From Streptomyces sp. SN-593 (lineage in GTDB: Bacteria; Actinomycetota; Actinomycetes; Streptomycetales; Streptomycetaceae), in NCBI RefSeq assembly GCF_016756395.1, contig NZ_AP018365.1, positions 434,001 through 498,000 of the forward strand: a stretch of 64,000 nt of DNA. The letters run 5' to 3'. A program made the position numbers and the translations under genes. Below, piece by piece: positions 1,470 through 37,208 of this stretch; positions within the stretch are counted from its first letter, which is position 1; each line of letters begins with the position of its first letter. Below the pieces are notes generated by a model. That model worked only from the letters and a program-made list of their open reading frames with translations. It made no database searches and was not told the DNA's origin.

Positions 1470-2927
1470 ATGACCGCCATCGCGGAACCGGTCCTCGGCA
1501 GGCACGGAAGCTTCGTCTCGGGTGCGGAGGTGGGCGGCGGCGCCGGGCGGTACCGCGCCGTCGTCAACCCCGCGGACGGCTCCGTGGTGGGCGAGGTGGC
1601 CGACGGCACGCCCGAGACCGTCGACGAGGCCGTACGCGCCGCCACCGACCAGGCCCGGGTGTGGCGCTCGACGCCGCCGGCCCGGCGCAGCCGCATCCTG
1701 CTCGACATCGCCGCGGCGATCAGGGCCGACGCGGAGTCGATCGCGCGCGCCGAGACGCTGGACAACGGCAAGCCGCTCGCCCAGGCCGCCTCGGACGTCG
1801 AGTCCGCGGCGAGGTACTTCGAGTTCTTCGGCGGGTACGCCGACAAGTTCAACGGCGACGCGATCCCGCTGAGCCAGGCGTACGTCTCCTACACCGTGCA
1901 CGAGCCGTTCGGCGTGGTCGGCCACATCCTGCCGTGGAACGCGCCGCTCCAGCAGGCGGCCCGGGGCATCGCCCCGTGCCTGGCGGCGGGCAACGCGGTG
2001 GTGGCCAAGCCGTCGGAGGAGACACCGCTGTCGACCCTCCGGCTGGCCCGGATCGCCGTGGAGTGCGGGCTGCCCGCGGGGCTGTTCAACGTCGTCACCG
2101 GGACCGGGGCCGAGGTCGGCGCCGCGCTGTGCGCGCACCCGGACGTGCGGCGGCTCGCCTTCACCGGCTCGGTGGCCACCGGCCGCGCGGTGGCGGCGGC
2201 CGCGGCCGACCGGGTGATCCCCTCGACGCTGGAGCTGGGCGGGAAGTCCGCGAACATCGTCTTCGCGGACGCCGACCTCGACGAGGCGGTGGCCGGCGCG
2301 GTCAAGGCGTCGATGGTCAACGCCGGGCAGATCTGCTCGGCCGGCACCCGGCTGCTGGTGGACGAGCGGATCGCCGAGCGGTTCGTGGAGCTGCTGACCG
2401 CCGCGCTGGACCGCCTGTCGGTGGGGCCGGGCATCGACGACCCGGACATCGGCGCCATCACCACCCGCGACCAGTTCGAGAAGGTCAGGCGGTACATCGA
2501 GATCGGCGAGGCCGAGGGGGCCACGGCGATCCGCTGCGGCCGGGCCGTCGCCGACCGCCCCGCGGGCGGCTTCTACGTCGACCCCGTCGTGTTCGTGCAG
2601 GTGCGCAACGACATGCGGATCGCCCGGGAGGAGGTGTTCGGACCGGTGCTGGGCGTGCAGACCTTCCGCGACGAGGAGGAGGCCGTCACCCTCGCCAACG
2701 ACAGCGACTACGGGCTCGCCGCCGGGGTGTGGACCGCCGACCTCGGCACCGCGCTGCGCACGGCCAGGGACCTGGAGGTCGGCCAGGTCTTCGTCAACGA
2801 GTACTTCGCCGGCGGCGTGGAGACGCCCTTCGGCGGGGTCAAGCGCAGCGGCTACGGGCGGGAGAAGGGCCTGGCCGCGATGTACGAGTACACCCAGTCG
2901 AAGTCCGTCAACATCAAGATCGGCTGA
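1470..2927 (+). CDS. NAD(P)-dependent aldehyde dehydrogenase
   Basis: Full-length (485 residues) ALDH superfamily enzyme oxidising an aldehyde to the acid. Visible landmarks are the oxyanion-hole Pro-Trp-Asn near residue 155, the Phe-Thr-Gly-Ser cofactor motif, Glu-Leu-Gly-Gly-Lys-Ser with general base Glu255, the catalytic Cys289 in Gly-Gln-Ile-Cys-Ser-Ala, and Glu-Glu-Val-Phe-Gly-Pro-Val. ATG 1470 is preceded by ggaaggcagtc, a reasonable ribosome binding site. It closes the first same-strand gene run, 55 bases after the CMD gene, and faces the GH59 gene tail to tail. Substrate is unknown; ALDHs of this type act on benzaldehydes, betaine aldehyde or semialdehydes. Confidence 0.9.
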   Translation: MTAIAEPVLGRHGSFVSGAEVGGGAGRYRAVVNPADGSVVGEVADGTPETVDEAVRAATDQARVWRSTPPARRSRILLDIAAAIRADAESIARAETLDNGKPLAQAASDVESAARYFEFFGGYADKFNGDAIPLSQAYVSYTVHEPFGVVGHILPWNAPLQQAARGIAPCLAAGNAVVAKPSEETPLSTLRLARIAVECGLPAGLFNVVTGTGAEVGAALCAHPDVRRLAFTGSVATGRAVAAAAADRVIPSTLELGGKSANIVFADADLDEAVAGAVKASMVNAGQICSAGTRLLVDERIAERFVELLTAALDRLSVGPGIDDPDIGAITTRDQFEKVRRYIEIGEAEGATAIRCGRAVADRPAGGFYVDPVVFVQVRNDMRIAREEVFGPVLGVQTFRDEEEAVTLANDSDYGLAAGVWTADLGTALRTARDLEVGQVFVNEYFAGGVETPFGGVKRSGYGREKGLAAMYEYTQSKSVNIKIG

Positions 2928-2931
2928 CCGG

Positions 2932-2969
2932 GCCGGCGGGCCAGCGCGCGTTGTGCGGTGCGCGCCGGC
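2932..2969. terminator. Possible bulged hairpin between convergent genes
   Basis: Between the aldehyde dehydrogenase and GH59 genes, GGCCGGC then GCGCGC are matched by GCGCGC then CGGCC around a ten-base loop, with a six-base bulge on the left arm. No T-tract follows. A weak bidirectional terminator is the likeliest role. Confidence 0.3.
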
Positions 2970-3018
2970 CCCCGGTCACCGCCACAGCTCGCGGATCGCG
3001 GGTGGCGGATCGCGCCGC

Positions 3019-6643
<3,625 letters not shown>

Positions 6644-28876: not shown

Positions 28877-28888
28877 GGCACCCAGTGT

Positions 28889-28905
28889 ACGGGACTCGGT
28901 CCCGT
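28889..28905. promoter_or_regulatory. Predicted TetR operator
   Basis: ACGGGAC-tcg-GTCCCGT is a perfect inverted repeat between the divergent TetR and oxidoreductase genes. The right half-site with its flank, GTCCCGTCACTCG (28899), recurs as GTCCCATCACTCG (28932), suggesting two binding positions 33 bases apart. Confidence 0.65.
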
Positions 28906-28962
28906 CACTCGTGTTACGGTGATGAAACCAAGTCCCATCACTCGCCCGAGGAGTCCGCACCC

Positions 28963-29895
28963 ATGAAGCGCATCCAGTACCACCAGTACGGCGGACCGGA
29001 GGTCATGCGGCTGGAGGACTTCGAACCGGCGCCGCTCGGCGCCGACGAGGTCCTCGTCCGTGTCCACGCCGCCGCGGCCAACCCGATGGACTTCGGCATC
29101 CGCGCCGGCCGCATGAAACACGTCACCGGCCGGCGTTTCCCCCGCGCGATGGGCTACGACCTCGCGGGCGTCGTCGAGTCCGTCGGCGACCGCGTCACCC
29201 GGCTGCGGGTCGGCGACGAGGTGCTCGGCGGGACACCGATCAAGACGGCCGGGGCGTTCGCCGAGGCGGTCGTGACGCAGGAGAAGTGCCTCGTGCACAA
29301 GCCCGGGGGGCTGTCCTTCGAGGACGCCGCCGCGATCCCGACCGTCGGCATCACCGCCCTCCAGGCCCTGGTCACCAAGGGGAAGCTGCAACCGGGCCAG
29401 GCCGTGTTCGTGCACAGCTGCCTCGGCGGGGTCGGCCGCTCCGCCGTGCAGATCGCCCTCGCCCACCGGGCCACGGTCGCGGGCAGTTGCCGGGACAGCG
29501 CCGGCGCCGAGGCACGCGACCTCGGCGTCGACCCGGTCGTCGGCTTCGACGTCGATCCCGACTCGCTCGCCGGGCGGTTCGACCTCGTCCTCGTCGCCGC
29601 CGGCACGCTCCCGTTCAGAGCCGCGCGGACGATGATCAAGCCGGGCGGCCGCATCATCAGCGTGCTGCCCACCCCGGCGAACCTCGCCCGGAGCGTGCTG
29701 CCCGGGCCGTTCCGCGCCTTGATCGCCCAGCCGGTCACCGAGGATCTGGAGACGGTCGCCCGGGCCGCCGCCGAGGGGACGCTGCGGCTGCCGATCGCCC
29801 GCACCGTGCCGCTCTCGCAGGCGGTCCCGGCGCTGACCGAACTGGAGCAGGGCGGCGCCGCGACCCGGGGCAAGCTGGTCATCACACCAGGGTGA
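28963..29895 (+). CDS. Zinc-type alcohol dehydrogenase-like / quinone oxidoreductase
   Basis: A 310-residue medium-chain dehydrogenase/reductase. The N-terminal GroES-like domain has Tyr-Gly-Gly-Pro-Glu-Val-Met and Ala-Ala-Ala-Asn-Pro-Met-Asp. The Rossmann domain has Val-His-Ser-Cys-Leu-Gly-Gly-Val-Gly. The zinc-binding Cys/His pattern of true alcohol dehydrogenases is absent, so an NADPH-dependent quinone or enone reductase is likely. ATG 28963 follows GAGGAG. It is divergent from the TetR repressor and presumably induced by the repressor's ligand. Its last 14 bases overlap the end of the STM4011-like gene on the other strand. Confidence 0.85.
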   Translation: MKRIQYHQYGGPEVMRLEDFEPAPLGADEVLVRVHAAAANPMDFGIRAGRMKHVTGRRFPRAMGYDLAGVVESVGDRVTRLRVGDEVLGGTPIKTAGAFAEAVVTQEKCLVHKPGGLSFEDAAAIPTVGITALQALVTKGKLQPGQAVFVHSCLGGVGRSAVQIALAHRATVAGSCRDSAGAEARDLGVDPVVGFDVDPDSLAGRFDLVLVAAGTLPFRAARTMIKPGGRIISVLPTPANLARSVLPGPFRALIAQPVTEDLETVARAAAEGTLRLPIARTVPLSQAVPALTELEQGGAATRGKLVITPG

Positions 29896-30757
29896 GCCGC
29901 TCCCCCGGCGCGGGGACGGTGGCCGGGATGCGTTCCAGCACACCCCCGGCGAAGACGTCGTAGAGCGGCAGGGTGTTCAGGTGGACGTAGCCGATGTGGC
30001 AGTCACAGGCGGCCAGGGGGCAGGGGCGCGGCCGCAGGGCCGCGCGGAAGCCGCCGTCGTAGAGGTTGCCGAGCGGCGCGGGCACGAAGTGGCAGCGGCG
30101 CACGGTCCCCTCGCCGTCCACCGAGACCACCGACTCCCCCGTCCGGCAGGGCAGTCCGGCGCTGGCGTGCGGGTGCCTGCTGTAGGGGAACAGGGGGTCG
30201 AGGTCCGTCCACCGGCCGGCCTCCTCGTCGGTGTACGTGTGGCCCTCGGCCGCGTTGATCCACAGGTAGACGTGGTCGGGCAGGTCGGCGCGCAACCGCC
30301 GTGCCGCGTCGAGGTGTTCGGGCCGGCCGACGACGCCCACGCTGAACCGGACACCGCGCGCGGCCAGGTCCCGGCACTTGGCGAGGAACCGGTCGTAGGG
30401 GGTCTGGCCGGGGTGGTAGGTGCACCACAGCGCGAGGGTGTCGAGGTCGGCGCCGGCCAGCCACCCGGTGCGGCCGCTGAGGTTGGTCTGGATGGCGACG
30501 CGCCGCACGTGCGGCATCAGCGACAGTCCGGTCAGGGCGTCGCGGTACCAGGAGCGGACCAGGCCCTCGCCCCACGGCGTGAACAGGATCGACAGGCGGT
30601 CGCCGGTCTGCTGCCCGGCCCAGTGGGTGAAGCGCTCCAACGCGGCGCGGTCGGCCCGCAGTTGCTCTCCGGTGTCACGGCGCTTGGCGAACGGGCAGTA
30701 CGGGCAGTCGTAGTCGCAGGAGGCGAGCGGTCCGCGGTAGAGCAGGGTCAGGTCCAC
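29882..30757 (-). CDS. STM4011-family radical SAM protein
   Basis: A 291-residue radical SAM enzyme. The [4Fe-4S]/SAM motif is Cys-Asp-Tyr-Asp-Cys-Pro-Tyr-Cys near residues 14-21. A C-terminal set of cysteines (Leu-Pro-Cys-Arg-Thr-Gly, Arg-Arg-Cys-His-Phe, Pro-Cys-Pro-Leu-Ala-Ala-Cys-Asp-Cys-His) looks like a SPASM/twitch-type auxiliary iron-sulfur site. Sequence and context match the family named after Salmonella STM4011; no reaction is known to me. GTG 30757 follows GGAGGTGA, a strong ribosome binding site. It is the last gene of a five-gene operon, four bases after the STM4012-like gene. Its end overlaps the convergent oxidoreductase by 14 bases. Confidence 0.85.
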   Translation of the reverse strand: MDLTLLYRGPLASCDYDCPYCPFAKRRDTGEQLRADRAALERFTHWAGQQTGDRLSILFTPWGEGLVRSWYRDALTGLSLMPHVRRVAIQTNLSGRTGWLAGADLDTLALWCTYHPGQTPYDRFLAKCRDLAARGVRFSVGVVGRPEHLDAARRLRADLPDHVYLWINAAEGHTYTDEEAGRWTDLDPLFPYSRHPHASAGLPCRTGESVVSVDGEGTVRRCHFVPAPLGNLYDGGFRAALRPRPCPLAACDCHIGYVHLNTLPLYDVFAGGVLERIPATVPAPGERLTLV

Positions 30758-30761
30758 GCCG

Positions 30762-32108
30762 TCACCTCCGCTCGTAGGCGGTCATCGCGGCGCGGACGGC
30801 CGGCGAGAACAGGGCGGGGCCGATCGCGTCGGAGTGGGCCAGCCCCTCGGGGGTCAGCCGCAGCGCGGTCCCGTCGTCGGTGAGCCAGCCGCGGTCGGCG
30901 AGGCGGTCGAGCACGTCGCCGAAGTGGTCGGCCGGCGCGGCGCCGAACCGGGCGCGGTACTCCGCGTGCTCCAGGCCCGCGGCCTGGAGCAGGGACTGGA
31001 GCAGGTGGCGCCGGCGGGCCTCGTCGCCGTCGACGCGGCGGCCGGTCTCGGCGTGCGCGAAGTCGGCCGCGGGGCGGGCGACGAAGTCGTCGATGATGCC
31101 GCGGATCTGGTGCATGCCCACGGCGTAGTCGAAGGAGTAGTGCAGCCCCGAGGTGTAGGAGCGGGCGCCGCAGCCCAGGCCGATCATGCCGTCGGTCTGG
31201 CAGGCGTAGTCGTCGGCGCCCTGCGGCGGGGCGTCGGCGCGGCGGAACATCCGCATGGACTGCTGCGCGTAGCCGTGGGCGAGCAGGTGGTCGCGGCCCG
31301 CACGGTACAGCCGCAGCCGCTGCTCGTCCCAGGCCGGGTCGGCTTCCTGGGTGGCGCGGCGGCCGAGGCCGGTCAGCGGGCGGACGTAGAGCGGGTAGAG
31401 GTACAGCTCCTCGGGCCGCCAGGCGAGGGCCGCGTCCAGGGATGCGCGCCAGGTGCGCTCGGTCTGGCCGTCGATGCCGTAGATGAGGTCGATGTTGAGG
31501 ACGGGTATCGCTGCGTCGCGGACGCGTCCGAGCGCGTCCTCGACGTCGGCGCGCCGCTGGGGGCGGACGGCGGCACGCGCCTCCGCGTCCACGAAGCTCT
31601 GCACGCCGAGGCTGAGCCGGGTGGTGCCGCGGTCGGCGAGCACGCCGAGGCGGTCGGCGGTGGCGGTGGCCGGGGACGCCTCCACGGACAGCGGGACGGC
31701 GCGCAGGTCGGCCCCCATGCGCCGCTCGGCGATGTCGCACAGGCGCTCCAGCTCCGCGGCGGTGAGGAAGGTGGGGGTGCCGCCGCCGAACGCGGCGGTG
31801 GCGAACCGGGCTTCGCCGTCGAGGGCGGCGCGCACCGCGCCGGCCTGCCGCTCCAGCGCGTCGAGGTAGGCGCCGGTGAGGCCGTCGGGGGCGCCGACCC
31901 GGGTGAAGAGGTTGCAGAAGCCGCAGCGGACCTCGCAGAAGGGGACGTGCAGGTAGAGCGAGAGGCTGTCCTGCGGCTCGCCCGCCCACAGGTCGCGCAG
32001 CGCGGGCCGCTCGGGCAGCGGCCGGTAGGCGGTCTTGTGCGGGTAGGCGTAGACGTAGCTCTGGTACGGGCCGCCGTCGAGGGCGGTGCGGGGTGGGGCG
32101 ACGGTCAT
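30762..32108 (-). CDS. STM4012-family radical SAM protein (HemN/HemW-like)
   Basis: A 448-residue radical SAM protein related to coproporphyrinogen dehydrogenases. The SAM cluster motif is His-Val-Pro-Phe-Cys-Glu-Val-Arg-Cys-Gly-Phe-Cys-Asn, followed by Phe-Gly-Gly-Gly-Thr-Pro-Thr-Phe-Leu, Leu-Ser-Val-Glu-Ala-Ser-Pro and Gly-Val-Gln-Ser-Phe. The C-terminal half has Met-Ile-Gly-Leu-Gly-Cys-Gly-Ala-Arg-Ser-Tyr and a HemN-like helical domain. It is unlikely to be a housekeeping haem enzyme because it is locked in the STM401x operon. ATG 32108 overlaps the preceding stop (ATGA). Whether it modifies a porphyrin, a peptide or a small molecule is unknown. Confidence 0.87.
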   Translation of the reverse strand: MTVAPPRTALDGGPYQSYVYAYPHKTAYRPLPERPALRDLWAGEPQDSLSLYLHVPFCEVRCGFCNLFTRVGAPDGLTGAYLDALERQAGAVRAALDGEARFATAAFGGGTPTFLTAAELERLCDIAERRMGADLRAVPLSVEASPATATADRLGVLADRGTTRLSLGVQSFVDAEARAAVRPQRRADVEDALGRVRDAAIPVLNIDLIYGIDGQTERTWRASLDAALAWRPEELYLYPLYVRPLTGLGRRATQEADPAWDEQRLRLYRAGRDHLLAHGYAQQSMRMFRRADAPPQGADDYACQTDGMIGLGCGARSYTSGLHYSFDYAVGMHQIRGIIDDFVARPAADFAHAETGRRVDGDEARRRHLLQSLLQAAGLEHAEYRARFGAAPADHFGDVLDRLADRGWLTDDGTALRLTPEGLAHSDAIGPALFSPAVRAAMTAYERR

Positions 32109-32953
32109 CGGTCGGCCTCCGACGGGTCGAGGAAGAAGTGGGCGTAGGGCACGGTCCACACGGACGGGTGGCCGAGCCGGTGGCCGGTGTAGCCGTCGTC
32201 GCCGTAGGCGGTGCCGTGGTCGGAGCAGACGATCGCGAAGCAGCGGCGCCTGCTGCTCGCGGCGGCGAACAGTCGCCCGATGTGCCGGTCGACGTATTCC
32301 AGTGCGGCGGCATGGGTGGCGCGGCTGTCGCCGGCCTCGCGCCCGGCGCCGGGCAGGTGGAACCAGTTCGGCTGGTGCAGGGCGGAGACGTTGACGAAGA
32401 GGAACAGCTTCCGCTCGGGCGGCAGGGCGCGCACCACGTCCTGCGCGCACGCCACCTGGTGCTCGAACGAGGTGGGCGAGGTGACGCCGAAGTCCGGTGT
32501 CCAGTGGGCTTCGTGGAAGAGGCCGGGCAGGACGGAGCCGAGCGGGCCCCGCTGGTTGAAGAAGCCGACCCCGCCGACGCAGGCGGTGTGGTAGCCGGCG
32601 GCGGCCAGGCCGGAGACGAGGTCGGGCGTGTCGTAGACGTAGGTGCCGGGCGCGGTGGTCTCGCTGCCGGCGAAGCGCGCGGCGAACAGCCGCGCGTGCG
32701 GTCCGGGGGTGGCCGGGGTCGGCAGGAAGCCGGCGAAGATCGCCTGGTGGGAGGCGTAGGTGAAGCTGCCGGGGGCGTGCCGCTCCTCCCACCGGCCGCC
32801 GGGGAGGTGGCGGGCCAGGTGCGGGATGCGGCCCTGCTCGGCCAGTTCGGCGGCGACGTCGTGGCGCAGCGTGTCCAGGGTGACCAGGAGGAGGTCGTGG
32901 CTGCCGACCACCTCGGTCATGTCCGGCTCAGCGGCCGGAGGGGAGGCGGGCAT
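32105..32953 (-). CDS. STM4013/SEN3800-family hydrolase (alkaline phosphatase superfamily)
   Basis: A 282-residue hydrolase of the alkaline phosphatase/sulfatase fold. Metal-binding Asp occurs in Leu-Leu-Leu-Val-Thr-Leu-Asp-Thr-Leu-Arg. The nucleophile position reads Phe-Thr-Tyr-Ala-Ser-His-Gln-Ala-Ile-Phe-Ala-Gly, with Ser or Thr but no Cys-x-Pro-x-Arg, so it is not a formylglycine sulfatase. The second metal site is Cys-Ser-Asp-His-Gly-Thr with a later Gly-His-Arg-Leu-Gly-His. It probably hydrolyses or transfers a phosphate or phosphonate ester. ATG 32953 follows GAAGGA and overlaps the STM4014-like gene by 26 bases; ATG 32920 is an alternative. Confidence 0.83.
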   Translation of the reverse strand: MPASPPAAEPDMTEVVGSHDLLLVTLDTLRHDVAAELAEQGRIPHLARHLPGGRWEERHAPGSFTYASHQAIFAGFLPTPATPGPHARLFAARFAGSETTAPGTYVYDTPDLVSGLAAAGYHTACVGGVGFFNQRGPLGSVLPGLFHEAHWTPDFGVTSPTSFEHQVACAQDVVRALPPERKLFLFVNVSALHQPNWFHLPGAGREAGDSRATHAAALEYVDRHIGRLFAAASSRRRCFAIVCSDHGTAYGDDGYTGHRLGHPSVWTVPYAHFFLDPSEADR

Positions 32954-34190
32954 CCGTGGGTCCTTCGCGGTGCGGGGCGGGCGGGCTGTACGGGGCCGGC
33001 GGGCGCGGTGGGCGGTGCGCCCCGGCCGCCCGGCCGGAGTCGGGCGCGGGGGGCCGGCGGGGTCCGGCCCCGGCGGCCGGCTCCGCGTGCGGCCGCAGGA
33101 TCTCCGCGACCTGGGCGGCGTACGTGTCCCGTCCCTCGGCGCCGCTGCCGGGCAGTCCGGTGAGGCCGGGCAGCAGGTCGCCGAAGGCGTTGACCTCGCC
33201 GACGGCGGCCCGGCGCCAGCCGACCGCCGGCAGCAGGTCCACGCCGACGCACAGGGTCCGGGGGAAGCAGGCGGCGGCCCGCTCGCACACGTCGAGCAGG
33301 TCGCTCCAGCGGGCGCCGGCCGCCTCGACCGCGGCGCGCGCGGCGTCGAGGTCGCCGCGCCGCCCGCCCAGGTGGAGGTTGGTCAGCGGGGAGCGGCTGG
33401 TGCGCACCACGGCGTGGGTGGCGCGTCCGCCGACCACGACGACCCGCAGGTCGGCGGCGCGGCCGGTCTGGGACGCCTTGGGCAGCCAGCGTTCCAGGTG
33501 CAGCCCGTCGGGGGCGAGCGCGTCCACGATCGCGGCGACGTCGGCCTCGCCGTCGTAGCGCCGCACCTTCAGGGAGTTGTGCAGGTGGCCGTCGGCGGCG
33601 CGCTCCACCGAGGTGGTGGCCCGCACCCTTCCGCCTCCGGCGGTCTCGACGGCGAGCACGCCGGAGGCGGACGAGCCGTGCGCGGGCTTCACGAACACCC
33701 GGGGCAGGCGGTGCGCGCGCATCAGCTCCCGGACGTCGTCCCACCCGCGCACCGGGGCCGCGCCGGGCCCGGACGTCGGCGACGCGGGGACGGGCACGCC
33801 GGCGGCGCGCAGGACCGCATGGCAGCGCCGCTTGTCGAACAGCACGGCGAGGTCGTCCGGGTCGTCCAGCCGGCGGCCGCCGCGCAGGCCGGCGACGGCG
33901 GCCAGGAAGCCGGCGTACCAGCGGGCGGAGCCGTCCACGCGGGTGGGGGCGTGCCCCTCCCCGCGCAGCCGGCGGTCCACCTCGTCGTCCTCCCCCGGCG
34001 AGTCGAGCCGCACGACCTCACGCGCGTCGAAGTCGGCCCCGCCGTCGCGCAGGACGTCGCGCCAGGCGACGACGCGCGGGGCGGGCAGCCCGGCGGCCCG
34101 GACGGCGTCCGCGAAGAGGGTCACGCGCCGGTTGCCGGGGTTGCCGACGACGGCCAGGCGCGGGGCGGCGCCACTCGCCGGGGAGGCCAT
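32928..34190 (-). CDS. STM4014-family ATP-grasp-like protein
   Basis: A 420-residue protein whose central part resembles an ATP-grasp ligase. Visible are Leu-Phe-Asp-Lys-Arg-Arg-Cys, Arg-Val-Phe-Val-Lys-Pro-Ala-His-Gly-Ser-Ser-Ala-Ser-Gly-Val with the ATP-contacting Lys and the flexible Gly-rich loop, Asp-Leu-Arg-Val-Val-Val-Val-Gly-Gly, and the metal motif Ala-Val-Gly-Glu-Val-Asn-Ala-Phe-Gly-Asp. ATP-grasp enzymes join an acyl phosphate to an amine or thiol, so this could ligate an amino acid or peptide within the pathway. The last 70 residues are Pro/Arg-rich. ATG 34190 overlaps the stop of the LRR gene (ATGA), and its 3' end overlaps the hydrolase start. Confidence 0.82.
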   Translation of the reverse strand: MASPASGAAPRLAVVGNPGNRRVTLFADAVRAAGLPAPRVVAWRDVLRDGGADFDAREVVRLDSPGEDDEVDRRLRGEGHAPTRVDGSARWYAGFLAAVAGLRGGRRLDDPDDLAVLFDKRRCHAVLRAAGVPVPASPTSGPGAAPVRGWDDVRELMRAHRLPRVFVKPAHGSSASGVLAVETAGGGRVRATTSVERAADGHLHNSLKVRRYDGEADVAAIVDALAPDGLHLERWLPKASQTGRAADLRVVVVGGRATHAVVRTSRSPLTNLHLGGRRGDLDAARAAVEAAGARWSDLLDVCERAAACFPRTLCVGVDLLPAVGWRRAAVGEVNAFGDLLPGLTGLPGSGAEGRDTYAAQVAEILRPHAEPAAGAGPRRPPAPDSGRAAGAHRPPRPPAPYSPPAPHREGPTDARLPSGR

Positions 34191-35149
34191 CACTCGCCCA
34201 CGGAGACGTAGCGCCAGACGGTGCCGTCGCTTTCCGTGTCCTCGTCGGCGTCGTCCTTGTCGAGGTCCAGCTCGACGCCGGCCGGGCGCAGGGTCTCGGC
34301 GAGGCGGTTCCGCATCGGCTCGCTGAGGTAGTGGTGGTGCAGGTCGAGCCTGGCGAGGTGGGTCAGCGGCTGGCCGGCGAGCAGCGCGCCGGCGCCCTCG
34401 TCGGTGAGCACACCCATGGACAGGTCCAGCTCCTCCAGCCGGGCCACGACCGGCGCCGCGGCCACCGCCGCCGCGACCGCGTCCTGCATCTCGCTGTTGC
34501 GCAGCGCCAGGTGGCGCAGGTTCGGGAAGCGGGCGCCGGACAGGATGCCCTCCAGGTCCGTCACCTCGCTGTCGCCGCCGTAGTCGGGGGTGCCGAGCCA
34601 CAGGTCGAGGTGTTCCAGGGCGGGCAGGTCGCTGGCGGCGACGCCCCGCACCACCTCGGCGGGCAGCCCGCCGGTCTCCATGACCAGGCGGCGCAGGGCG
34701 GCGTGCTTCACGGCGGGGAAGACGAGGTCGGTGCCGCCGCGCACACCCAGCTCCGCCAGCTCCGGGTAGGCGTCGAGCAGCGGGGTGATGTCACCTTGGT
34801 GGATCCAGGAGATCTCGCACTCCTCCATCACCATGTCGCCGACGAACACCGCGCGCAGCGCGGGGAAGCGGTCGCGGGCACCGGTCAGCGCGTTCACCAC
34901 CGGCTCGCACGAGCTGTCGTACGCCTCCTCCCAGGCACCCACGATCAGCGCCTTCACCCGGGTGGTGTCGACGGTCTCGCAGAACCGGGCGAAGGCGGCC
35001 GGCCAGTCCTCCTCGGAGTCGTAGACCTCGCCCCGGACGCGCCAGGCCACGGCGTCGGGGTCTGGCAGGTCGGCCACGGGTGCGTCGCGGCCCGGGAAGT
35101 CGTACGCGGGCAGCCCGTGCAGCTCGTCGAGGTGGTCACCGATGGTCAT
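34190..35149 (-). CDS. STM4015-family leucine-rich-repeat protein
   Basis: A 319-residue cytosolic protein and first gene of the five-gene operon. The C-terminal two-thirds contain leucine-rich-repeat-like segments, such as Leu-Pro-Ala-Leu-Glu-His-Leu-Asp-Leu, Phe-Pro-Asn-Leu-Arg-His-Leu-Ala-Leu, Leu-Glu-Glu-Leu-Asp-Leu and Leu-Ala-Arg-Leu-Asp-Leu, preceded by an acidic N-terminal domain rich in Asp/Glu/Trp. LRR folds usually bind another protein, so it may be a scaffold or substrate receptor for the radical SAM enzymes. ATG 35149 follows CAGGAG; the frame is open for another 138 bases upstream without a better site. The 254-base region upstream is shared with the divergent GEVTGHAH protein gene. 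Confidence 0.8.
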   Translation of the reverse strand: MTIGDHLDELHGLPAYDFPGRDAPVADLPDPDAVAWRVRGEVYDSEEDWPAAFARFCETVDTTRVKALIVGAWEEAYDSSCEPVVNALTGARDRFPALRAVFVGDMVMEECEISWIHQGDITPLLDAYPELAELGVRGGTDLVFPAVKHAALRRLVMETGGLPAEVVRGVAASDLPALEHLDLWLGTPDYGGDSEVTDLEGILSGARFPNLRHLALRNSEMQDAVAAAVAAAPVVARLEELDLSMGVLTDEGAGALLAGQPLTHLARLDLHHHYLSEPMRNRLAETLRPAGVELDLDKDDADEDTESDGTVWRYVSVGE

Positions 35150-35403: not shown

Positions 35404-35730
35404 GTGTACCGGCAGGGAGACGTGCTGATGGTGCCCGTGGCGGAGGAGGCGGTGCCCGCGCACGTGGCCGCGGCGCGCCGTGAGCCGCGCGACGGGCGGG
35501 GCCGGCTGGTGCTGGCGCTGGGAGAGGTCACCGGCCACGCGCACGCCGTGGTCGGGCCGGGCGAACTGGTCCGGGAGCCGGGGCCGTTCGGGCCGTTCCT
35601 GCTCCATCTCCCGCAGGGCGGGCGGGTGGTCCACGAGGAGCACGCGACGATCACGCTGCCGCGCGGCTGGTTCCGGGTGATCCGGCAGCGGGAGTACGTG
35701 CCGGGGTCGGTGCGGATCGTGGCGGACTGA
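35404..35730 (+). CDS. Conserved hypothetical protein with GEVTGHAH motif
   Basis: A 108-residue small beta-rich protein. It opens Tyr-Arg-Gln-Gly-Asp-Val-Leu-Met-Val-Pro-Val and has the block Leu-Gly-Glu-Val-Thr-Gly-His-Ala-His-Ala-Val, then a Glu-Glu-His-Ala-Thr-Ile-Thr-Leu-Pro-Arg-Gly strand. The spaced histidines could bind a metal. I do not know a function. GTG 35404 follows GGAGGAGG, a strong ribosome binding site. It is divergent from the STM4015-like gene and 137 bases upstream of the DUF6745 gene on the same strand, with which it probably forms a pair. Confidence 0.7.
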   Translation: MYRQGDVLMVPVAEEAVPAHVAAARREPRDGRGRLVLALGEVTGHAHAVVGPGELVREPGPFGPFLLHLPQGGRVVHEEHATITLPRGWFRVIRQREYVPGSVRIVAD

Positions 35731-35867: not shown

Positions 35868-37208
35868 GTGGACGGGAAGGCGAGGAGCGCGGTGGACGTG
35901 GTGGAGACGACGGTGGAGACGGTGGGCGCGGCGGAGGCGGCGGGCCCGGGCGGCGGCGTGACGGTGGGCGGTGCCGGCCCGGAGGCAGGCTCGGGTACAG
36001 GCCCGCAGGCAGGCTCGGGCACGGGTACGGAGACCGGCACGGGTACGGAGACCGGCACGGGTACGGGGACCGCCTCGGGTGCGGAGACCGCCTCGGGTGA
36101 GGGGGTGCCGGACGAGCTGCTGCGGCGCTGGCGCGCCTGCTCCTCGGCGACCGGACCGGCCGACCGGGCCGCCGCCGAGCGCGGCATACGGCTCGCCTAC
36201 ACGCGCGCCGGGCTGCCGGAGCCGGAGCGGATCGTGTGGGTCGGCTCGCCCCGCGCGGCCGTCGACGTGCTGCGCGCCCTCGCCGACGCCGGGCCGAGCG
36301 TGCGCGACCGGGTGCGTACGGCGCCGTGGGCCGCCGAACGGGCGCGCCTGAACGCCGACTTGGGCGCGGCCGGGTGGTCCGCGCACTGGAGCGCGACCGG
36401 CGGCCGGCTGTGGGAGACGACGCACGCGCTGGTCGACCGCATCCGGCAGGGGGTCGTCGAGGAGCTGGCGGGCACCGGCCCGTCCGCGCCCGGGGACACG
36501 GCCTCGGGAGCATCCGGGGGCGCTGCCGGGAGCGGCCCCGCCGCGGTCGACCGCGCCGCGCGGCAGGACAGCGCCCGGGTGGAGGCCGAGGTCCGGCTGC
36601 TGCTGCTCGACGCGGTGCTCGGCCAGCACGACGCCCCCTGGCTCGCGGCCTTCCCCGCCGACCGGGCTCCGCTGGACGGACTCGCCGAGGTGTGCCGCAC
36701 CGCCGGCTGGTGGTGGCCCTTCGCCCGGGTCGCGGTGGTGAGCGAGCGCCCGGTCGCCCTGCACCGCGACGAGGCCGGCCGGCTCGACCACGGCGAGGGC
36801 CCCGCGCTCGCCTACCCGGACGGCTTCGCCCTCCACGCGTGGCGCGGCATGCCGGTGTCGGCGGCGTTCCTCGCCGAGCTGCGGACGCTGACCCCGGACC
36901 GTATCCGCGCGGAGGAGAACGCCGAGCTGCGGCGGGTGATGCTGGAGTACTACGGGTACGACCGCTACCTCACCGAGTCCGGCGCCCGCCCGCTGCACCG
37001 CGACGAGACCGGCGTCCTGTGGCGGATCGACCTCGCCGGCGACGAGCCGGTGGTGATGGTGGAGGTGGTCAACTCCACTCCCGAACCGGACGGCACCCAC
37101 CGCACGTACTGGCTGCGCGTCCCGCCGGCGACCCGCACGGCCCGCGCGGGCGTCGCCTGGACGTTCGGGGTGTCCGAGGAGGAGTACCGGCCGATGCGGC
37201 AGACCTGA
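35868..37208 (+). CDS. DUF6745 domain protein
   Basis: About 446 residues. The first 75 or so are low complexity, including a repeated Gly-Thr-Gly-Thr-Glu-Thr element encoded by an 18-base tandem repeat. The conserved part begins at Glu-Leu-Leu-Arg-Arg-Trp and contains Ile-Val-Trp-Val-Gly-Ser-Pro, Trp-Trp-Trp-Pro-Phe, Asp-Arg-Ile-Arg-Ala-Glu-Glu-Asn and a C-terminal Val-Glu-Val-Val-Asn-Ser-Thr-Pro-Glu-Pro-Asp-Gly-Thr with Thr-Tyr-Trp-Leu-Arg-Val-Pro-Pro. This agrees with DUF6745, of unknown role. The start could be GTG 35868 or GTG 35892, the latter close to GAGGAG. A perfect hairpin terminator follows the stop. Confidence 0.72.
   Translation: MDGKARSAVDVVETTVETVGAAEAAGPGGGVTVGGAGPEAGSGTGPQAGSGTGTETGTGTETGTGTGTASGAETASGEGVPDELLRRWRACSSATGPADRAAAERGIRLAYTRAGLPEPERIVWVGSPRAAVDVLRALADAGPSVRDRVRTAPWAAERARLNADLGAAGWSAHWSATGGRLWETTHALVDRIRQGVVEELAGTGPSAPGDTASGASGGAAGSGPAAVDRAARQDSARVEAEVRLLLLDAVLGQHDAPWLAAFPADRAPLDGLAEVCRTAGWWWPFARVAVVSERPVALHRDEAGRLDHGEGPALAYPDGFALHAWRGMPVSAAFLAELRTLTPDRIRAEENAELRRVMLEYYGYDRYLTESGARPLHRDETGVLWRIDLAGDEPVVMVEVVNSTPEPDGTHRTYWLRVPPATRTARAGVAWTFGVSEEEYRPMRQT
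36018..36071 (+). repeat. Three 18-base tandem repeats inside the DUF6745 gene
   Basis: Units begin at 36018, 36036 and 36054; the first two are identical and the third differs by one base. Each encodes Gly-Thr-Gly-Thr-Glu-Thr (last copy Gly-Thr). The length is a multiple of three, so copy-number change would keep the frame. Confidence 0.8.

Follow-up and report, generated by a model that had tools for sequence, protein, structure and literature searches.

LysX/ArgX and RimK are ligases that attach amino acids to the C-terminal glutamate of a protein. The LysW/ArgW system brings together a dedicated carrier with a C-terminal Glu, an ATP-grasp ligase and enzymes that act in succession (PMC10433800; PMC9303977). 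Chemistry on an amino acid at a carrier C-terminus, including a step by a radical S-adenosylmethionine (SAM) methyltransferase, is also described for the pearlins 3-thiaglutamate and 3-thiahomoleucine (PMC9303977). Here, we analysed a five-gene operon of the STM4011-STM4015 families in Streptomyces sp. SN-593, located in a stretch of 64,000 nucleotides (contig NZ_AP018365.1, positions 434,001 to 498,000; hereafter the window). Its leucine-rich repeat (LRR) protein, STM4015, ends in a near-invariant Glu. We propose, with confidence that is evenly balanced, that the ATP-grasp protein STM4014 likely joins an amine to this Glu and that the joined group would then be remodelled by the radical SAM enzymes STM4012 and STM4011. 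The tail with its near-invariant Glu is a new observation of this analysis.

As the initial annotation of the window had supposed, no published function for STM4011-STM4015 or SEN3800 was found in the open-licence PMC literature, and a paper elsewhere could exist. STM4013.S appears in a table of sigma54 binding sites that gives no function for it (PMC3844500), and STM4015 is listed as a hypothetical protein, without a function, among Salmonella genes tabulated for serotype-specific signs of positive selection (PMC2784778). Within the same literature, no paper pairing radical SAM with leucine-rich repeat and ATP-grasp was found, and DUF6745, Q64V53 and three of the NCBIfam accessions returned nothing.

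Organisation of the operon in Streptomyces sp. SN-593

Five consecutive genes occupy positions 35149-29882 of the window on the minus strand, in the order STM4015-STM4014-STM4013-STM4012-STM4011. In a profile search, all five proteins scored above their own NCBIfam cut-offs by a wide margin:

34190..35149, minus strand: STM4015 family LRR protein, 319 residues, candidate carrier or substrate (NF038076, 412.9 bits against a cut-off of 275)
32928..34190, minus strand: STM4014 family ATP-grasp ligase, 420 residues (NF038074, 459.8 bits against 175)
32105..32953, minus strand: STM4013/SEN3800 family metallohydrolase, whose start may be 32920 (NF038075, 422.3 against 250)
30762..32108, minus strand: STM4012 family radical SAM enzyme, HemN/HutW/NocN-like (NF006067, 653.5 against 380)
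29882..30757, minus strand: STM4011 family radical SAM enzyme with a second Cys-rich, SPASM-like region (NF038073, 411.3 against 200)

Both the family assignments and the five-gene operon put forward in the initial annotation are thus confirmed. Its description of the junctions, as ATGA overlaps or spacings of no more than four bases, was nearly correct: it holds for STM4013/STM4012 (ATGA overlap) and STM4012/STM4011 (4-base spacing, GTG start), but STM4015 and STM4014 have one base in common (TGATG, not ATGA), and STM4014 and STM4013 either share 26 bases, if the listed start is used, or are 7 bases apart, with the ATG at 32920 that fits the relatives. The source genome of 8.97 Mb contains a single STM4011, and its closest named relatives by protein comparison belong to Actinacidiphila and Streptomyces.

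A near-invariant glutamate at the C-terminus of STM4015

Pfam detected only LRR fragments, below cut-off, in the STM4015 of the window. Two further features lie at the end of its gene:

34193..34216, minus strand: C-terminal tail WRYVSVGE, whose terminal Glu is the candidate attachment point
34217..34270, minus strand: acidic linker from LRR body to tail (columns -9 to -18, variable and rich in Asp/Glu, with an acidic residue in 39-77% of representatives)

Tail statistics were taken from 61 STM4015 representatives of less than 80% identity. Position -1, exactly at the C-terminus, is E in 61/61, and position -2 is restricted to T, G, S or A; R is found at position -7 in 58 and Y or F at position -6 in 58. 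The region preceding this short aromatic and Arg-containing tail is variable and acidic. Moreover, E is terminal in all 101 listed STM4015 tails, each followed by a real stop codon. Compared across genera, the bodies diverge and the ends converge: WRYVALGE in Deinococcus, IYRSIAVSE in Methylobacterium, WRYPSLTE in Paenibacillus, WRYPAVTE in Undibacterium, WRYVAVSE in Acaryochloris, WYYPMITE in Bacteroides and IYMNAMYTE in Salmonella.

The four other families served as a control and showed no end conservation, the commonest terminal residue accounting for 14/66 STM4014, 4/17 STM4013, 13/42 STM4012 and 11/44 STM4011 proteins; the repeat of this control left out five STM4012 genes truncated at locus ends. 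In 30 further regions, 36 of the 38 STM4015 matches (3 of the 38 score below 100) end in E, the exceptions being a distant LRR protein with a score of 70 (L157) and a match with a score of 220 (L160). Three STM4015 genes stand without the operon; two of them have Glu or Asp at position -2 (L146, L147) and one is normal (L148). The tail pattern, written with one arginine codon box only, occurs once with a true stop in the source genome, and its only other match runs into TGG. An extra N-terminal WGR domain was observed on STM4015 in Undibacterium (L116:2959-4029) and Bacteroides (L036:6558-7631).

Several STM4015 copies for one enzyme set

Among the 57 genomes of the window's family with STM4011 over cut-off, 23 have between two and seven STM4015 copies above the cut-off, in each case with a single such STM4011. 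Tandem STM4015 genes precede one enzyme set, with six copies in G649 and five in G675. The comparison covered 7 and 8 copies, respectively, in these two genomes; identity was 41-66% in the bodies, against a mean of 80% for the last seven residues. So many copies per enzyme set suit STM4015 as an acted-upon protein more than as a subunit of a machine. Diverged bodies with alike tails also open the reading that the LRR bodies choose partners and the tail bears a common group. STM4015 proteins might then be swappable recognition scaffolds that keep the same radical-built group on their terminal Glu; one enzyme set would arm up to seven LRR proteins per cell, in a bacterial system of protein modification where the LRR selects the target and the tail group supplies the activity. 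We put this forward only tentatively, as an unlikely extension.

In two genomes with STM4015 arrays, ~1.8 kb separates STM4013 from STM4012 (L151 8914-10745; L153 8439-10307). A 571-residue frame in L153 has no Pfam match.

The predicted fold of STM4014 is closest to LysX/ArgX and RimK

In Pfam, the STM4014 of the window matched ATP-grasp families below cut-off. Predicted models were built on alignments of 50 of the 59 listed STM4014 relatives and 45/45 listed STM4015 relatives. Among solved structures, the folds nearest to the STM4014 model are those of LysX/ArgX and RimK (Foldseek ranks 1-6, VIA-align ranks 1-9), with other ATP-grasp enzymes trailing by only 2-3 Z and PsnB, a peptide-modifying ATP-grasp ligase, at Foldseek ranks 11-13. 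STM4014 lies below the cut-offs of TIGR02144 for LysX/ArgX (18.5 vs 275.6) and TIGR00768 for RimK (22.1 vs 143.4). A single-sequence search of the PDB found no ligase, and a search with the alignment gave weak matches only, with inositol phosphate kinase best, followed by LysX and RimK; thus the ligase assignment rests on the predicted model. The initial annotation had guessed that the LRR protein may be the substrate, and the C-terminal Glu, together with a LysX/RimK-type ligase fold, supports this guess and makes it specific.

Two radical SAM enzymes

Each radical SAM protein carries a CxxxCxxC motif:

30695..30718, minus strand: CxxxCxxC of STM4011 (C14, C18, C21), invariant in 8/8 aligned sequences
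31914..31937, minus strand: CxxxCxxC of STM4012 (C58, C62, C65), at least 97% conserved in 95 sequences

Beyond this motif, STM4011 contains five further Cys in a SPASM-like arrangement, also invariant in the 8 aligned sequences, in agreement with the second Cys-rich site described initially. The Pfam Radical_SAM match of STM4011 is below cut-off and its single-sequence search gave chance-level matches only; the SPASM domain scored 18.3 against a cut-off of 21.5 in the Bacteroides STM4011 and gave no match in that of the window. For STM4012, Pfam reported Radical_SAM and HemN_C, and the PDB likeness is to HemN (1olt) and the radical SAM methyltransferase NocN (9p2u). Its NCBIfam scores remain below the equivalog cut-offs of HutW (136 vs 400), HemW (134.5 vs 205.4) and HemN (132.4 vs 324.95). 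STM4012 is HemN/HutW-like by these matches; the initial annotation had described it as HemN/HemW-like.

The SPASM-like Cys pattern raises the alternative that the STM4015 tail is itself a peptide modified in the manner of a ribosomally synthesised and post-translationally modified peptide (RiPP). STM4011 and STM4012 would alter its Trp, Tyr or Arg, the LRR would be a built-in leader, and STM4014 would extend or cyclise the product. The frequent Arg at -7 and Tyr/Phe at -6, and the presence of PsnB among the top folds of STM4014, are consistent with this. However, positions -8, -7 and -6 are not invariant, as illustrated by the Salmonella end, and the terminal Glu alone is; among the annotated loci, neither a protease nor a transporter recurs as a constant partner, and no short precursor gene was noticed, although no exhaustive search for one was made. 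We consider a RiPP-like tail rather unlikely.

The STM4013 hydrolase and a recurrent HAD partner

STM4013 matched Pfam Sulfatase (PF00884) with 31.2 against a cut-off of 25, and its sole PDB match is a nucleotide pyrophosphatase (E 2e-5). Residues D27, T65, H69, N188, H193, D245, H246, H258 and H262 are at least 97% conserved in 94 sequences; we take them to form a site for two metals and a Thr nucleophile, as in the alkaline phosphatase superfamily. The formylglycine motif is C/S-x-P/A-x-R. By inspection it is not present at the conserved Thr (T65), where STM4013 reads FTYASH, so that the description of a hydrolase without this motif was right and sulfatase activity was rejected.

A HAD hydrolase lies beside or near the operon in Salmonella (L032:11607-12341) and D. 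taeanensis (L033:13489-14316), is fused to STM4011 in Bacteroides (L036:9010-10575) and stands between STM4014 and STM4013 in Undibacterium (L116:5166-5846). Its recurrence hints at a phosphorylated intermediate. The complete pathway suggested by the initial annotation is not borne out, since no release enzyme is recognised and the HAD hydrolase of several phyla is not adjacent to the operon in the window.

Proposed mechanism and alternatives

STM4015 would be an LRR-scaffolded carrier or substrate that takes the part of LysW in lysine/arginine synthesis, the LRR domain replacing the small zinc domain. STM4014 is predicted to charge the terminal Glu of STM4015 with an amine, the tethered group would be remodelled by STM4012 and STM4011, and STM4013, with a HAD phosphatase in some phyla, would remove a phosphate or ester along the way. 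We infer the Glu as acceptor, the amine as attached group and the order of the steps.

Two points weigh against this scheme. The operon has no recognised peptidase for release, and the tail seems to be docked and not free: it is confidently placed in the predicted STM4015 model (predicted local distance difference test score of 94.6), whose alignment to the nearest solved fold, 2ra8, extends to the C-terminus. The tail could accordingly be a docking tag or structural cap that keeps the enzymes assembled or seals the end of the LRR, the true substrate being a free small molecule, and E112, S114 and W115, invariant within the LRR, could be its internal partners. Yet a cap needs no Glu exactly at the C-terminus, where it is found in every representative, and up to seven diverged copies per enzyme set fit a substrate better than a subunit; we find a docking or capping tail rather unlikely. 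It is highly improbable that STM4014 makes an internal, graspetide-like ester or isopeptide bond that joins, for instance, the terminal Glu of STM4015 to its Ser114 and so locks the LRR fold: the invariance of S114 (46/46 aligned), the apparently docked tail and the PsnB fold match would suit it, but it leaves two radical SAM enzymes and a phosphatase-like hydrolase without a role, and the closest folds of STM4014 are intermolecular ligases.

Distribution and co-occurrence of the five genes

Genome contigs were scanned with the STM4011 alignment, Paenibacillus first, and the best 80 of at least 538 confirmed matches were retained as loci, 57 from the Paenibacillus/Saccharibacillus group and 23 from others. 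The full set occurs in the same order in 78 of these 80 loci, indicating that the arrangement is not due to chance. The two exceptions are L099, which is without two genes within an 8-kb contig and has STM4015 on another contig of the genome, and L103, a cut contig. The complete operon was found in five bacterial phyla, with hosts including Streptomyces, Paenibacillus, Salmonella, Deinococcus, Methylobacterium, Undibacterium and one cyanobacterium.

Of 13 plasmid records found, 10 were examined, and nine hold the full set (two each from Salmonella and Deinococcus, and one each from Methylobacterium, Paenibacillus, Nonomuraea, Embleya and Streptomyces). The tenth, from Bacteroides finegoldii, keeps STM4015, STM4014 and STM4011, with STM4013 and STM4012 reduced to remnants between the latter two (L036:8642-8995), and is a case against strict completeness of the set.

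Co-occurrence was assessed in 121 genomes of the window's family, with STM4011 over cut-off as the criterion. STM4015 is present in 61 and STM4011 in 57: both occur in 57 genomes, STM4015 alone in 4 and neither in 60, so that every STM4011 genome (57/57) has STM4015. G659, with STM4011 split over frames, was left outside the 57 and is one of the four STM4015-alone genomes; G663 and G686, with weak matches, were also left outside, and G745, with STM4011 in two pieces of which one is over cut-off, was included. Together with the 78 complete and co-ordered loci, these counts bear out strict co-occurrence across phyla.

The distribution of the operon is patchy. STM4014 is over cut-off in 6/296 genomes of the window's phylum, the window genome included. 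In Pseudomonadota, the phylum of Undibacterium, STM4015 is over cut-off in 1/349 genomes, namely G296, the genome used as the starting point, and the operon thus looks rare there. E. coli genomes gave no match to the Salmonella operon at megablast sensitivity. In the phage collection, matches came from two Salmonella-labelled records only. A STM4011 relative lies at 2861-3655 of OR850900.1, a 5.9-kb record labelled Salmonella phage that is possibly bacterial DNA.

Neighbouring genes

Two recurrent neighbours, outside the coordinates of the operon and missed in the initial annotation, lie on the opposite strand:

35404..35730, plus strand: small His-rich protein (QGDV...GEVTGHAH...HEEH...QREYxP), divergent from STM4015 (aligned by eye; start chosen by relatives)
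35868..37208, plus strand: DUF6745 protein (PF20530, 391.5 bits against 27)

The small protein has no Pfam match. Relatives of it were found in 17/80 loci, each of which belongs to the 23 from outside the Paenibacillus group, and the pair is absent from all 57 Paenibacillus-group loci; it also flanks the operon in Deinococcus and Methylobacterium, where the N-terminal parts of DUF6745 are rich in leucine. Of the 121 family genomes, DUF6745 exceeds its cut-off in 49/57 with STM4011 and in 6 more. All 23 DUF6745 proteins of the first locus set end in Y-x-P-x-x-[EQ]-[TA]; judging from these sequences, the pair may be a second LRR-with-tail system.

On the other side, the end of STM4011 and a convergent oxidoreductase-like frame (28885-29895, plus strand) overlap tail to tail by 14 bases (29882-29895). 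Anti-phage defence was dropped as a function, PADLOC giving two weak partial matches only on nine proteins (the five, both window neighbours and the Undibacterium STM4015 and HAD proteins).

Comparison with known systems

The C-terminal Glu and the LysX/RimK-type ligase narrow the open question to one residue. If the proposal is true, protein-tethered biosynthesis extends to LRR scaffolds and radical chemistry, and 2ra8, a structure titled as an uncharacterized protein, gains a role. This solved STM4015-family member (B. fragilis Q64V53), a close Bacteroides relative of which carries the N-terminal WGR domain, has the native end ...YPMITE, and its construct extends beyond the native Glu by eight residues (362 vs 354), probably a tag. 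It should be noted that C-terminal tags on STM4015 would block the proposed site.

Like the LysW/ArgW system, the operon has a protein with a C-terminal Glu, a ligase with the predicted fold of LysX/ArgX and several enzymes, presumably sequential. In contrast to LysW, a small Zn protein with acceptor Glu54, STM4015 is an LRR protein of ~300 residues without a small Zn-binding Cys domain, and it does not end in EDWGE (0/101 listed tails). STM4014 is without GSWGR, and GSSASG occupies the corresponding glycine-rich stretch, as judged by eye; GSWGR is the carrier-recognition motif of LysX/ArgX (PMC10433800). No kinase, reductase, transaminase or peptidase was matched by any of the five proteins, which include two radical SAM enzymes instead. 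RimK differs in acting on a ribosomal protein (RpsF), and STM4014 falls below its profile, as given above. For the pearlins, a different enzyme adds Cys at the C-terminus of the carrier and a protease frees the product (PMC9303977); neither type was recognised among the five proteins. What the proposed pathway would share with the pearlins is the reworking, with radical SAM enzymes involved, of a group held at the C-terminus of its carrier.
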